Shown piece after piece: positions 8,545-15,700 of a stretch of DNA of 64,000 bases. Below the pieces are notes generated by a model. That model was not told where the DNA came from. It saw only the letters and a program-made list of their open reading frames with translations, and ran no database searches. Position numbers and translations under genes: made by a program. Numbering within the stretch: the stretch's first letter is position 1; each line of letters begins with the position of its first letter. This DNA is from Candidatus Zipacnadum vermilionense (lineage in GTDB: Bacteria > Armatimonadota > Zipacnadia > Zipacnadales > Zipacnadaceae). The stretch covers positions 62,001 through 126,000 of the forward strand of contig JALGSV010000004.1 of NCBI GenBank assembly GCA_029821755.1, in the 5' to 3' direction.

Positions 8545-11500
8545 CTACTTGGTCAGCTTGATACTGGTGCCTCCCACCGGTACGGTCAGCCGGTAGGCCC
8601 CATGGACCATGTCAAGCTTCACGCCGGCAGCGGAGTGATCCAGCTTCCAGCCGGCGGGAGCGGTGAGGGTCAGTTGCCCGGCGGGAGTGCCCGGGGGTAC
8701 GGATATGACTAGGGCGTCGGGGGCGATCCGCAGGCCGGTGGCAAAGGGCGCGGCGAGGCCGTACTGCTGGTAGCGGACCTCCCCGGCGGCGCAGAGCGTG
8801 AGGCTCAGTCCGGTCGGCCGGGACTGGACGGCCCCTGCAGTGCCCTGGAAGGAGGCACCCTCGGCGGCGGCGTTGCCGGGCTGGTCGGTCAAGAACGCGT
8901 AGTCGGTCCCGAAGGCGCCGGTGACCTTGATGACCTTGCCATCAGCGAGGGTGGCGAAGGTAGGGGCTTGCTCGGCGCGGGCACGCGGGAAAATCGCCAC
9001 GAAGTAGTGCCCGTCCCCCGGGAGGCGGAGGTTGAGCAGGTCCTGGTACTCGGGGACGTTAAGGCGAGCGCCGCCGTAGCGAAGGGTGGCGCGGGGGGTG
9101 TCGGCGGGGGCGGCGATGAAGTACTCCAGGTCTACCTCGAACTGCCCAACAGCCGTGTAGCGGGCCCCGGCGGGCAACTCGCGGGCCGCGACGGGGTTCG
9201 GGCCGGGCTTATCGGCGAGGAAGGCCGGGTCGGCCATTTGCGCCGGGGTGCCAATCTTCTCCGACAGCGACCGGAACTGCCATTCCGTCGGCTGTCCACC
9301 GGCCGTTGTGTCACGAAAGACCAGGTAATTAGCTCCAGCGGGATCGTCGTCCTTGAGGAAGAGCACTTGGCGCGTCCACTCCAGCTTCGGGGCGGTGGCG
9401 GCGGTCACGGAGGGCCAGGCTGGGAGCTGGTCGGGGAACCATTCGCGGTCATCGGGCTTGGTCACCGTGTAGGTGGCGCGGACGTAGTCCAGCCGCGGCA
9501 GCAGGGCACAGTTCTCCGGCTTGGTGGTGGTGTAGTAGCCGAAGGGGGCCTTGGTGGCGGCCGCGCCGTCCCAGTTGTGGGCGAGGAGCACGCCGTCGCG
9601 AAGTAGTTCGTGGCGCTCATTGTAGCCGGTGGCAAAGTAGAAGGCCTCCGAGACCGGCTTGCCCTTGGCATACCACTGGGCCAGGCTGCCGACCTCCGCC
9701 ACCCAGACGTCCAAGTTGCGCAGCGAATCGACGTGGGAGAGCAGGTTGACGTAGTTCTCGGCATCGGTGCCAACGCCAGTGCGGAAGATGACGCCCAGGT
9801 TCGGGAAGAGCACCGAGCCCCAGTCAGGCTTCTGAGCGGGCAGCGTCCGGTCCATGTACAGCGGTTCGAAGCCGCCCATGCGCCAGTCGCCGAACTCGGG
9901 GGCATAGCCGTTCTCCTCCCACATCCACTGCATCACCTTGGAGTAAGCGGGGTCGCTCTGAGCGGTGGCACGGGCCAACACACCGAACATAGCTGAGGTA
10001 TCGCCGGCCGTACCCCGGCCCACCGGCGGCGAGACGCGCTTCAGCGTACGCTGCGGGTCAGCGGGGGTCCACTGCTGGGCGAAGTAGAGACCGATGCGCT
10101 TGAAGCGCGGGTCGGTGAGGAAGTCGTGGAAGCCGGCGCGCTGGGCGGCGACGGCGTAAGCAATGATTGGCGTCACGCTCACCTGGCCGTAGTGCGAGCC
10201 CTCCGGCAGCCACTGGCCGCCAGGCCCCACCTCGTTGTCCAGCCACTGCTCCATCCAGCCGTTGCAGTAATCGGTCCACGTCTTGGCCATGGGATGGTCG
10301 GGAATGAGGCAGGCGAGCACGCCCAGAGAAAGCGTATAGGAGACGGTCATATTGGGGTTGCCGCTCAAGTAGCCGCGCTCCATCGACCAAGTGGAGGGAT
10401 CGGCTATGTTATAGGCGAGGTAGGCCAATTGAGACCGGTACAACGTGCGTTCCTGGGGAGTGATCAGGTCGGTGTCGATGAGGGCGTCGTACATGGCGCC
10501 GAGGGCAATAGCATGGCGCATGGTGTCGAAGCCGCCGAGCAGAGCGAGCGTGTCGCGCAGTGACCGAGGGACCTCCGCCTGGGCGGCGACTTCCTTGTCG
10601 CCGCCGGAGTAGAGATAGGCCTCATTGGCCCAGCCCAGGTAGCCTTTGACGGCGGTGAGGAACTGCAGGCGCGTCGGGTCAGGCTCCACGCGCTTCCAGG
10701 CCTCCTGCATCTCCGCCTTCGAGACGAACAGGAGCGGATGCTCGCCGGCTTTGTCGGGCCAGTCGAGGACGTAGTCCTTGACGAGGTTGAGGCGCTCGCC
10801 GAGGTAGGGCATCCCGGCGCTGGTGGACCACTTACGCCGGCCGGCGGCGAGGCTGATCTGGAGGGAGACGGCCCCATCGGCGGCGTAGGTGACGGGAAGG
10901 CGCTTGCGCTTCCAATTCTCCCACATCTGGGGGATGGCCTCCAGGTCCCAGGACTTGAAGCCCGCGTAGGTGAAGGGCGCGACGGGGTCGGCCCAGCAGC
11001 CGGGGTCGCGGGAGCGCAGGACCAACTCCGGGCCTGCCTCGACGGCGAGGCGCAAAACCGCGGGGTTCTCCGGGAAGGCATTGACGAGGCTGGAGTCCGG
11101 ACTCAGGTAAGCGCAAGGAGCGGCGTTGGGGGAGAGGGGTGCGGTGCGGTCCTTGGCCCATTGCCCCCAACCTTTGGGCATGACCATCTGCTTGACGCCG
11201 GGGAGGTTGGCCAGCGTCATCTCCACTCCGACGTCGGGCTGATCCCCCTTGGCCTCAATACTCCAGCGAACGGCGCTGTCACCGGCGCCTATCCGGGCGG
11301 TGAGGCGCGCAGTACTGTTGTCGGTGAACTCAACCAGGTAGTCGACCTGCGCGAAGACTGGGCCCTCAGCGGTCAGTTGGGAGGACCAGGATTTGACCGA
11401 TGCGTCGCCGTACCAACGGCTTTCCCCGGCCCAGGGAGTATTGCCCAGGCGCAAGGAGGCGAGTGGGCCAGGGAGGTCCTGGAGCTTGGCCGGGGTAGGG

Positions 11501-11961
11501 AAGGTCTGTGCCCCCAGGGCGAAACGGGCGCCGAGGCGGCTGGTAGTGATCTCCACGGTGGCGTCGCCGGGGTGGCTGGCGAGATCAGTGGCTACGGCGA
11601 TCTGACTGGGTGCGCCGCCGTAGGTGACGGTGTAGGAGTTGGTCGCCAGCGGCGGGAGGGTATCGACCAGGAACGACAGTTGCGCCGACTTGACGGACCG
11701 GGTGCCGGGCCAGAATTCGACCGCGGACAACTGTACCGCCACCGGGCCACGGGGACCGGTAAGCTGGACCGAATCGGCGAGGCACGCGCCCTGCGGAGCG
11801 GTAAAGGGATAGCTGACCCATTCGTTGGCGTAGCTTTGGTTGAGCAGCTCGCGGACGGCGATGGTCTGCGTGGCGGGAGCGCACTGGAGATGGCCTGCGG
11901 CGCAGAGGAACAGCAGGAGGAGAGCAGAGATAACAGCCTGATCACGGCGGAGAATACGCAT
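8545..11961 (-). CDS. Large secreted polysaccharide-lyase-like protein (heparinase II/III-type architecture)
   Basis: 1138 residues. Start 11961 is preferred because AAGGAG lies 8 bases upstream; ATG 11967 is only 2 bases from it. A signal peptide ends near HLQCAPA. The N-terminal third is a beta-sandwich (VRELLNQSYANEWVSYPF). An alpha-helical region of the alpha/alpha-toroid type follows from about 400 (HPLLFVSKAEMQEAWKRV, STWSMERGYLSGNPNMTVSY, GGQWLPEGSHYGQVS), and then a beta-rich C-terminal half. His590-Tyr591 and His743 (SHVDSLRN) sit where heparinase II/III-like lyases keep catalytic His/Tyr; this is inference from layout. The plus-strand neighbour 12783-16259 is a paralogue. Substrate unknown. 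It probably forms an operon with the GH106-like gene. Confidence 0.7.
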   Translation of the reverse strand: MRILRRDQAVISALLLLFLCAAGHLQCAPATQTIAVRELLNQSYANEWVSYPFTAPQGACLADSVQLTGPRGPVAVQLSAVEFWPGTRSVKSAQLSFLVDTLPPLATNSYTVTYGGAPSQIAVATDLASHPGDATVEITTSRLGARFALGAQTFPTPAKLQDLPGPLASLRLGNTPWAGESRWYGDASVKSWSSQLTAEGPVFAQVDYLVEFTDNSTARLTARIGAGDSAVRWSIEAKGDQPDVGVEMTLANLPGVKQMVMPKGWGQWAKDRTAPLSPNAAPCAYLSPDSSLVNAFPENPAVLRLAVEAGPELVLRSRDPGCWADPVAPFTYAGFKSWDLEAIPQMWENWKRKRLPVTYAADGAVSLQISLAAGRRKWSTSAGMPYLGERLNLVKDYVLDWPDKAGEHPLLFVSKAEMQEAWKRVEPDPTRLQFLTAVKGYLGWANEAYLYSGGDKEVAAQAEVPRSLRDTLALLGGFDTMRHAIALGAMYDALIDTDLITPQERTLYRSQLAYLAYNIADPSTWSMERGYLSGNPNMTVSYTLSLGVLACLIPDHPMAKTWTDYCNGWMEQWLDNEVGPGGQWLPEGSHYGQVSVTPIIAYAVAAQRAGFHDFLTDPRFKRIGLYFAQQWTPADPQRTLKRVSPPVGRGTAGDTSAMFGVLARATAQSDPAYSKVMQWMWEENGYAPEFGDWRMGGFEPLYMDRTLPAQKPDWGSVLFPNLGVIFRTGVGTDAENYVNLLSHVDSLRNLDVWVAEVGSLAQWYAKGKPVSEAFYFATGYNERHELLRDGVLLAHNWDGAAATKAPFGYYTTTKPENCALLPRLDYVRATYTVTKPDDREWFPDQLPAWPSVTAATAPKLEWTRQVLFLKDDDPAGANYLVFRDTTAGGQPTEWQFRSLSEKIGTPAQMADPAFLADKPGPNPVAARELPAGARYTAVGQFEVDLEYFIAAPADTPRATLRYGGARLNVPEYQDLLNLRLPGDGHYFVAIFPRARAEQAPTFATLADGKVIKVTGAFGTDYAFLTDQPGNAAAEGASFQGTAGAVQSRPTGLSLTLCAAGEVRYQQYGLAAPFATGLRIAPDALVISVPPGTPAGQLTLTAPAGWKLDHSAAGVKLDMVHGAYRLTVPVGGTSIKLTK

Positions 11962-12289
11962 GGTCATGACTCCTTGCAGAGGCGTTTGCAGCTTGCCTAA
12001 GCCGCCAATAATTCCCTATTCGCCGTTCGTTAGGCGCAATCCTGTCTCGCACTCTGCGCCGGAATCGGCCCGGGACGGAGGAAAAGCGGCGTGCTTGCCG
12101 AATAGGGCCAGCGTACCATCCTGCGCCCGGGGCCGATTGACGAGGTGGAGACGACCTGGTTCAAGGGACGGGGCTTCCGGCCGTGCCTTTCCCAATCGAT
12201 CTCCGCGGCAGTTTACCGCCCATCGCGTGGATGTTATAGTTCTATCATAGTCGCCCCAAGCAACGGTTGTATCCCAGGTGGCAGTCAAC
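11962..12289. other. 328-bp divergent intergenic region
   Basis: Lies between the minus-strand lyase-like gene and the plus-strand HTH/two-CW gene and must hold the promoters for both. The only clear signal is the AT-rich patch at 12232-12249 (listed separately). No additional gene is supported. Confidence 0.6.
12235..12245 (+). promoter_or_regulatory. Candidate -10 / small dyad upstream of the HTH/two-CW gene
   Basis: TATAGT at 12235-12240 resembles a -10 hexamer and overlaps the dyad ATAG-TT-CTAT (12236-12245) in an otherwise GC-rich region, about 45-55 bp before the start at 12290. The overlap would suit autoregulation by the HTH protein. No convincing -35 was seen. Confidence 0.35.
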
Positions 12290-12715
12290 ATGGAGAACCT
12301 CGACCTCAAGTCGGTCCGCGAGAGCCTCGGTCTTACGCAGGACCAGTTTGCCGCGATGCTCGGGTATTCCATTCGGGCCATCCAGAGCTGTGAGCAGGGC
12401 TGGCGGAAGCCGAGCCCGGCGCTGGAGAAGATGGCGCTGCTGCTATACATGGCCCACCAGCAGGGAGGTGCGCTTGGGGAACATGCCTGCTGGGAGGCGC
12501 TGCAGTGCTCGCCGCAAGTCCGGGAGACCTGCGTGGCCTACATGTCCCGCCAAGGGCACCTGTGCTGGTTTCTGACCGGGAACATGGCCTGCGCCAGGAC
12601 ACGCCTGCACAGTTGGGAGGAGAAGAAGGCGATCTGCGCAGCGTGCCCCTTCTTCCAGCGAATGCTGGAAAGCCCGCCGTCGCCAGAGGCGGACGGGGAG
12701 GTTTCGGAGGAGTGA
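12290..12715 (+). CDS. XRE-type HTH regulator fused to a cysteine-rich two-CW domain
   Basis: 141 residues from ATG 12290 (AGGTGG 9-14 bases upstream; GTG 12278 is the alternative). Residues 6-50 form a Cro/C1-type helix-turn-helix (VRESLGLTQDQFAAMLGYS, then IRAIQSCEQGWRKPS). Residues 66-122 carry Cys67-Trp68, Cys73, Cys81, Cys92-Trp93, Cys101, Cys116 and Cys119, the pattern of two-CW domains, which probably bind metal or an Fe-S cluster. A redox- or metal-responsive transcription factor is therefore likely. It lies between two divergent ~1150-residue lyase-like genes and ends 67 bp before the second, so these are its likely targets. The fusion is clear from sequence; ligand and targets are inference. 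Confidence 0.8.
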   Translation: MENLDLKSVRESLGLTQDQFAAMLGYSIRAIQSCEQGWRKPSPALEKMALLLYMAHQQGGALGEHACWEALQCSPQVRETCVAYMSRQGHLCWFLTGNMACARTRLHSWEEKKAICAACPFFQRMLESPPSPEADGEVSEE

Positions 12716-12782
12716 GGCGGCCCCGGGCCCACGGTGGACGAGGTCGCAGTACATATATGTGAGTCCGAAGGGAGCATGGTAC

Positions 12783-15700
12783 ATGCGGACATTCGTGGTT
12801 GGGTTGATGATCGGGATCATACTGCTGGGTGGGATAGCATGGGCCGCGTCGGGGGCGGATCGTCAGATTGTGCTGCGTGAGTATCTGGGGCAGTCCTGGG
12901 CGCCGGCGCTGCTGACCTATCCCCTCGAGGCGGCACAGGCGGACAACTGCGACCCGCTTAGTGTGCAGGTGACCGGACCGAACGGGCCGGTGGCCGCGCA
13001 GTTGATTGCCGTGCAGCGCTGGCCGGGGACCGAGTATGTAAGGTCCGCCCGGCTGGTGTTTGTCAGTGACCTGCCTCCCAACGGGGAGAAAATTTTCACC
13101 GTGAAGTACGGGGAGAAGTCGGCGGTTCAGCCCGCGACGGACCTGAGCGTGAAGCCCGCCGCCGGACAGGTGGAGGCGGGGACGCGCTACTTTGGCTTGC
13201 GTCTGCTGCTGGGAGACAAGACCTATGACCAGCCCCAACCAGCGGCGCAGGTCCCCGGGCCGGTCGTGGGTATGCGCCGGCCGAGGGGGCAGTGGTTCGG
13301 CAGAAGTTCCCTCTATGGCGAGCGGAAGGTCAAGTCGTACGCTGCCCGCATCACCGAGCGGGGGCCGGTGCTGGTGGAATGGACGATTCGCTACACCTAC
13401 GAGGACGACAGCACGCTCGATCTGACGGTGCAACTCGCGGCGCGTGACGCGCAGGCTCTCTGGACGACCAACTCCAGCGCCGACCACCCACGGGACGGCT
13501 GGAAACTCATGGTGACCCCCGGGATGGATCCCCTGGTGATGACGTGGGCGCCGGAATTCGGGAAGAACAAGTGGAAGCCCTTGGAGATGGTCGACGGGCG
13601 CTGGGATTTCGACCCGATTGACGTGCCCCTTGACGAGGAGCCGGAGGGGATGATCACGCAGCTCACTCCGTGGAAGGACTGGTGGAACGGCACGACGCAG
13701 ACCTCGTGGACCTTCAATAATCCCGCCGGGGTGCCGGTGCTGCATGCGGAGATTCAGGACCCCGGCGCCTGGGTGGTGCCGGACCCGCCGGGAACGCTGC
13801 GCGTCTGGGATGCCTGGCATCATAAGCTGCTGCCGCTGTGGAAGGAACCCGGCGGCAACCTCGGGCTGCGCGTGAACAACGCCCAGGGCGTGCGCCAGTG
13901 GCTGCTGGGGAGCGGGGAGCAGGCGCTGGGCCGAGAGTTGGACGTGGTGAAGGACTACGTGCTGGACTGGCCGGAGGGCGAGTTGGGCCACCCGCACCTG
14001 TTCCTGAACAAGCAGGAGTTGGAGGACTACTGGGCTAGCCACCAGCCGGACCCGGCGGAGATCAAGCGACTCACCGACTGGGGGCAGACCATCCAGCCGC
14101 AACCGCATTCGAGTGACGGTGGGGCCCTGGCGGCGTGGCTGATGACTGGTACGCCGGAGGTGGCGGAGCAGGCCAAGCTGGTGGAGCGGCTGGGGCAGCA
14201 CCTAAACCTGCTCGGCGATTTCGATCTTATGCGCGCCACGCCGCTGTTGTGCGACCTGTACGACGGCGTCATGGGTAGCGGTCTGGTCTCCGAAGAGGAT
14301 CGCAAGCTCTTCCAGGCCCGGATGGCATACCTGGGGTACAAGGTAGCCAACCCCTCCACCTGGTCGATCGAGCGCGGCTACCGCTCGTACAACCTGAACA
14401 TGAGCGTGGCGCACGTGCTGAACCTGGGGATGATCGCGGCGACGCTGCCCAATCACCCCATGGCGAAGCAGTGGGTGGCCAGCGCTGAGGCGATGATGGA
14501 GAACTTCCTGAGCAAGAGCGTAGGTCCGGCGGGCGAGTGGCCCGAGAGCGTGTCGAACTATGCCTACGTCAGCGCCAGTATGCTGGAGGTTTTCGCCATC
14601 GCGGCTAAGAACGCGGGCTTCCACGACTACATCAGCGACCCGCGGATGCGGCGCCTGATGGAGTACCTGGCCAAGCAGTACACGCCGCCCGATCCTCGGC
14701 ATACCGAGGGGGGCAAGGACGGTTCCTCCGGGTTGCTCTCGCCGCTGGGACGGGGCGGAGCCGGCGGGCGCAATGGGATGAGCGGGATGATGGCGCGGGC
14801 GACGCTGAAGGATGATCCCGAGTACTCGGCCGTGCAGCAATGGACGTGGCTGCGCACCGGGGCCAGCCGGAGTGTCCCCGACGCACGCCTGGGCGGCTGG
14901 GAGTACGTCTACATGGACCCGGACCTGCCTGCCCGGCAGCCCGACTCAGCGCTTGATTACTTCCCGGAGACGGGGGCGATCATGCACTTGGGCGTCGGGA
15001 CGCCCGACGAATGGTACGTCTACCTGATGGCGGAGCGGACCTTCGGCTATGTGTCGGAGAGTGGGGGATTCCCGGTCATCTTCGCCAAGGGGGCGCCGAT
15101 CTCGGCGCGGTTCGCCGGCGGTTACTCCCAGCGGGAGGAACTGCAGATCAGCCGGGTGCTCCTGGGTCGTGAGCGGGGGACCAAGGAGGAGCGGACGGCC
15201 CAGTTCTGCCACGACGGGGAGCGGCGCATCACCGAGGTGTCAGCCCTGCCACGCCAGCAGTATCTGGCGAGCGACTTCACCATGCGCACCCCGATGCACA
15301 TCTCCCACGAGGCCGGGGCGACCTGGGACCACATGAAGGACCTGCCGCTGTGGCCCCAGCCGTTGGGTATTGGGCAGCCGCCGCTGGACTGGCGGCGACA
15401 GGTGCTGTTCGTGCATGAGCAGGACCCGGCCGGAGTGGGCTATCTGGTGCTGCGCGACACCGTCACCGGCGAGCAGCCTTCCATCTGGCAGATGTGGACG
15501 GTGAGTGAGAAGATCGGGACGCCGGAGCAAGCGGCGGACCGGGCGGCCTTCCTGGCCGACAAGCCGGGGATGAGCCCGGTGGACGCATACCAGTTGCCTC
15601 AGAGCAACCGTTACACGGCGGTGGGGCAGTTTGGCGTGGATGTGGAGTACTACATCGCCGCGCCGACCAACACGCCGCGCAACACGCTGCACTTCGGGCA

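Follow-up and report, generated by a model that had tools for sequence, protein, structure and literature searches.

An HTH-two-CW regulator gene between two lyase-like genes of Candidatus Zipacnadum vermilionense, probably a diverged second copy of a rare XRE-type repressor family

The window, a stretch of 64,000 nucleotides from Candidatus Zipacnadum vermilionense (phylum Armatimonadota; contig JALGSV010000004.1, positions 62,001 to 126,000), contains a short regulator gene placed between two divergent lyase-like genes. The features at this locus, in coordinates of the window, are as follows.

8545..11967, minus strand: divergent lyase-like gene of a large paralogous family, weak match to DUF4962
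12212..12240, plus strand: sigma-70-like promoter TTTACC-17-TATAGT with TG preceding the -10 hexamer
12236..12245, no strand: ATAGTTCTAT, the AT-rich "dyad" of the original prediction, overlapping the -10 hexamer; not significant
12290..12715, plus strand: HTH-two-CW regulator gene, an open reading frame of 141 amino acids; the other possible start is a GTG at 12278
12305..12430, plus strand: Cro/C1-type helix-turn-helix (HTH), residues 6-47, from an HTH_3 match, the AF2 model and PDB matches
12485..12667, plus strand: two-CW domain, residues 66-126, with C67 W68 ... G89 H90 x C92 W93 ... C116xxC119, from NF045718
12759..16259, plus strand: downstream lyase-like gene, weak match to DUF4962; an ATG with a possible ribosome binding site is found at 12783

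The original prediction had described the regulator as a Cro/C1 HTH joined to seven ordered cysteines, two of them followed by tryptophan, and this reading of the gene is right. Residues 6-47 match Pfam HTH_3 with an E-value of 1.8e-6 and 28.3 bits, above the cut-off of 23, the HTH region reaches a pLDDT above 90 in the AF2 model, and comparison of the full model with the PDB by sequence and by fold yielded essentially XRE/Cro-type HTH matches only. Residues 66-126 match the NCBIfam model two_CW_domain (NF045718), in which the domain is already catalogued, with an E-value of 6.5e-7. Positions 2-78 of the 80 positions of this model are aligned and both CW motifs and the ordered cysteine set are present, with a score of 29.6 bits, below the cut-off of 35; the paralogue in the same genome, with 34 bits, also stays below it. 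Cysteines 67, 73, 81, 92, 101, 116, and 119 are invariant in nine full-length relatives. In 20 two-CW domain sequences six of them are invariant and C81 is missing only in two stand-alone copies. Conservation does not extend to the eighth cysteine of the protein, C34, which lies in the HTH. Arginine 29, glutamine 32, and serine 33 of the presumed recognition helix are invariant in the relatives and kept in the window copy. A Foldseek search with the model of the two-CW domain, which is of low confidence (pLDDT 68), gave zero matches, viral contigs and plasmids searched for close relatives yielded nothing beyond the HTH part, and no match to the Rrf2 profile was obtained for the window protein. 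A literature search retrieved no paper naming the two-CW domain and none on a haem regulon in Armatimonadota.

The two flanking genes match DUF4962 with 17.6 and 13.1 bits, below the threshold of 28.7, and their paralogues give sub-threshold matches to heparinase II/III models. The position of the regulator between them is as had been predicted; the term lyase-like itself is weakly supported by these sub-threshold matches. Further genes of the window match models for GH66, GH42, and CBM weakly, so that the carbohydrate setting of the window is a fair assumption, not a proven one. A search of the window's own genome (G000) with the flanking-gene family gave 101 matching pieces, corresponding to several dozen genes. 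These DUF4962/heparinase-like paralogues form a large expansion with many tandem groups within one genome of 4.39 Mb.

Full-length HTH-two-CW proteins were found in 11 of 291 genomes of the phylum and in two of four genomes of another group. The genes beside them, named in part by family search and in part by eye, mostly belong to haem, cytochrome c, CO dehydrogenase, cysteine, or methyltransferase functions. At L017, from the same genus, the gene is flanked by ccsB/ccsA (ccsBA) and CO dehydrogenase. Within the same family it is found near precorrin-2 dehydrogenase and hemA together with a HemB-like gene and a NirJ2-type radical SAM gene (L025), beside precorrin-2 dehydrogenase-like, UbiA-like, and UbiE-like genes (L022). 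Elsewhere it adjoins genes for a phosphoadenylylsulfate (PAPS) reductase (cysH), an Rrf2 protein, a [2Fe-2S] subunit, and hemA (L080, and L081 by likeness). MttB-like and corrinoid protein-like genes adjoin at two further loci (L018, L091), an NAD(P)H-hydrate repair gene at L021 and an aminotransferase gene at L024, and Rrf2 genes occur near three family loci (L020, L080, L081). Two distant relatives have a GH116 gene (L083) or a trehalase-like gene (L082) as neighbour. No neighbour is conserved across all family loci read, which argues against a toxin-antitoxin pair as well as against a fixed carbohydrate role, and the genome search for the fusion and its neighbours which the original prediction had called for revealed that the linkage with carbohydrate genes is not conserved in relatives. 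Two-CW coding pieces truncated exactly at contig ends (L026, L027, and L028; G025:C435, G025:C372, and G006:C33) and stand-alone two-CW reading frames (L080:14378, L081:14780) were also observed, and are perhaps repeats or mobile copies which break the assemblies.

MqsA antitoxins pair a zinc-binding cysteine domain with the same type of HTH, and the HTH of the window protein matches MqsA models below the cut-off, so the protein might be an ordinary XRE repressor or resemble an antitoxin, with a two-CW domain that holds no more than a structural zinc. This is very unlikely, as the domain order is opposite to that of MqsA, the cysteine pattern is different, and no adjacent partner gene recurs in the loci read. 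In addition, some proteins of the phylum, about 500 residues long and judged by eye to be GAF/histidine kinase-like (L074, L075, L078), carry the two-CW domain N-terminally, in keeping with an input role.

A candidate operator of the family was found in the palindrome TATCACTNAGTGATA. It is perfect, with zero mismatches, upstream of the genes of the two most distant relatives (L018, L091), and 10 of 16 family genes have it upstream with up to three mismatches, each site beating at least 97% of its own shuffles, a test which is partly circular for L018 and L091 because the consensus was derived from these same upstream regions. The genes of L017 and of L080/L081 are without a clear upstream operator. 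Counting sites with at most one mismatch, there are 19 in the 13 genomes with the gene (50.5 Mb) and zero in 18 related genomes that lack it (68.6 Mb), with a chance probability of about 8e-8 if sites were distributed by megabases alone, and of 2e-4 when G025 and the two autoregulatory sites are left out. Only this class separates clearly from the control; trans sites with two mismatches outside G025 are mostly hardly above the reversed-pattern control. Operator sites were found 20 bp before the start of cysG-N (precorrin-2 dehydrogenase) in G001, at cysG-N in G009, at hemA and cysG-N in G006, and in G025, a genome of the same order, at hemA and at nuoF-like genes. A related radical SAM/SPASM gene carries a site in both G001 and the window's own genome (C48), where a site on C38 without a clear target and some weaker ones were also detected; cysG-N was not found in this genome. 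The putative regulon is mixed, as it also includes an O-methyltransferase, a WD40-like protein, CsgG, and a DUF6259 gene, and the theme of haem and Fe-S electron transfer is therefore a matter of few genes. Two further observations concern single sites: a tandem pair of operator-like sequences with two and three mismatches lies upstream of hemA in G025 (L119:2989-3034), and a family 2B encapsulin gene of the window's genome (NF041163, 573.6 bits; L134:3065-5994, G000:C49:14164-17093), followed by a cysteine desulfurase-like gene, has a 2-mismatch operator 55 bp upstream.

Another finding was the coincidence of these sites with promoter-like sequences. Promoter-like hexamers scoring at least 9 of 12 overlap 11 of 20 operator sites, against 0.9 on average and never more than 4 in 500 shuffles. 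At L020, L082, L083, and L084 the operator fills the promoter spacer in identical register, and at many other sites it begins 5-15 bases past the start of the -10 hexamer; either placement is typical of a repressor. In its half-site, TATCAC, the palindrome resembles lambda-type operators, as fits the Cro/C1 class of the HTH.

The window itself, over its 64 kb, contains zero sites at three or fewer mismatches. The spacer of the promoter at 12212-12240 is without the family operator (9 of 14 positions mismatched), the best match in the gene's own promoter region has six mismatches (p 0.69), and near either flanking lyase start the best match likewise has six. As judged from its residues, the window copy is a member of the family by sequence, not by an operator in its own promoter. 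The 11-bp AT-rich dyad which had been reported at the promoter did not hold up, since the longest perfect arms in 11968-12289 measure 4 bp and were equalled in every shuffle, and the stretch includes the -10 hexamer TATAGT. A 10-bp palindrome, ACATATATGT, precedes the downstream lyase-like gene, and an equally long one arose in 34% of shuffles; no dyad in the two intergenic regions beside the regulator is significant. With carbohydrate linkage not conserved, the family operator absent from the window, and the dyad not significant, the proposed control of polysaccharide breakdown finds no backing, and the case is weak, as nothing was found showing that the window copy controls the adjacent sugar-breakdown-like genes.

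A second HTH-two-CW gene, the sole other copy found in the window's genome, is located on G000:C112 (L020); its protein is 57% identical to that of the window and it has kept a weaker operator with three mismatches. Lyase-like genes of the same family as the window flanks, and divergent likewise, lie about 3.9 kb upstream and 2.6 kb downstream, with HNH and Rrf2 genes in between, and these two loci hold three of the roughly seven members of the closest lyase subfamily. The glycan idea finds its strongest argument in this neighbourhood, yet the evidence is modest because lyase-like genes are so numerous in the genome. Together with the placement of the window gene, the glycosidase neighbours in L082 and L083, and the palindrome ahead of the downstream lyase, it could point to a dedicated local regulator of both divergent lyase-like operons, which would recognise a diverged operator near 12212-12245 or 12716-12782. 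Such a regulator is unlikely, as the gene of the same genus sits between ccsBA and CO dehydrogenase, those of the same family adjoin haem genes (L022, L025), and others lie beside cysH, Rrf2, and hemA or beside MttB. Nearness to lyase-like genes comes cheap in a genome with several dozen of them, HNH and Rrf2 genes intervene at the second locus, the palindrome is matched in a third of shuffles, and the best operator match near either lyase start has six mismatches.

The absence of the operator from the gene's own promoter and from the whole window, its retention in weaker form by the paralogue, and the family copies cut short at the ends of contigs in G006 and G025 would also be compatible with a decaying or idle duplicate which has no specific target left. 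This is quite unlikely in view of the intact reading frame, the retained seven cysteines and recognition residues, the credible promoter, and an end branch which is shorter than most in a tree of 13 family proteins. The same tree did not resolve whether the gene of L017 is orthologous to the window gene or to the paralogue.

The reading preferred here, with a probability of about 0.6, is that the window gene is a diverged second copy of a rare XRE-type two-CW repressor family acting on TATCACTNAGTGATA, and no dedicated lyase switch. Members of the family would bind this palindrome, presumably as dimers, with TATCACTGAGTGATA as the predicted bound site for the paralogue on G000:C112 or for the G291 protein. 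From the position of the operator in the spacer or directly behind the -10 hexamer of sigma-70-type promoters we infer repression, of the family's own genes (autoregulation) and, in trans, of hemA, precorrin-2 dehydrogenase, the radical SAM/SPASM protein, nuoF-type Fe-S subunits, and others. The two-CW domain would be the input, most likely binding a metal, an Fe-S cluster, or haem, a change in the state of which would release the protein from DNA. A sensor of metal, redox state, or haem is suggested by the cysteines and the GH-x-CW motif of this domain, by its occurrence in GAF/histidine kinase-like proteins, and by the haem and Fe-S genes among the targets; the metal or redox role which the original prediction had raised for it is plausible. 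Having lost the operator of its own promoter, the window copy probably escapes autorepression. Binding to the family site in trans may still occur, as arginine 29, glutamine 32, and serine 33 are retained, and the protein would then work on the few trans sites of its genome, or on another target of its own.

More tentatively, at somewhat less than even odds, the family may be described as redox- or haem-responsive HTH-two-CW repressors of Armatimonadota and at least one other lineage, which through TATCACTNAGTGATA couple genes of tetrapyrrole synthesis and Fe-S electron transfer to a signal read by the two-CW domain and which one genome has duplicated beside an expanded lyase-like family. Taken jointly with this description, and with the same reserve, the family would so far have gone unrecognised. 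If true, this would provide a handle on the control of haem synthesis in the little-studied Armatimonadota. As the two-CW domain is fused directly to a DNA-binding part for which an operator is predicted, a simple DNA-binding assay would suffice to test for its ligand.

Among known systems, MqsA (CxxCG_CxxCG_HTH) shares a cysteine domain and a related HTH with the window protein, in which the order is reversed, the cysteine pattern is another one, and a toxin partner is lacking; membership in this family was rejected, as the HTH part alone matches, below the cut-off, with no full-length or N-terminal CxxC match. Proteins of NF045718 have the seven ordered cysteines and two CW motifs in common with the window protein, along nearly the whole model. 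The window protein differs by its score below the cut-off and its N-terminal Cro/C1 HTH, whereas in the kinase-type members the two-CW domain precedes GAF- and kinase-like regions. With XRE/Cro-C1 repressors such as those of lambda and P22 and the controller proteins the family shares the HTH fold, a lambda-like TATCAC half-site, and an operator within the core promoter; it is distinguished by its cysteine domain in place of a peptidase or known oligomerisation domain. The likeness to Rrf2 regulators (IscR, CymR, NsrR), which have an unrelated type of HTH and another cysteine pattern, is a functional one: a small HTH protein whose cysteines form a presumed Fe-S or thiol sensor.
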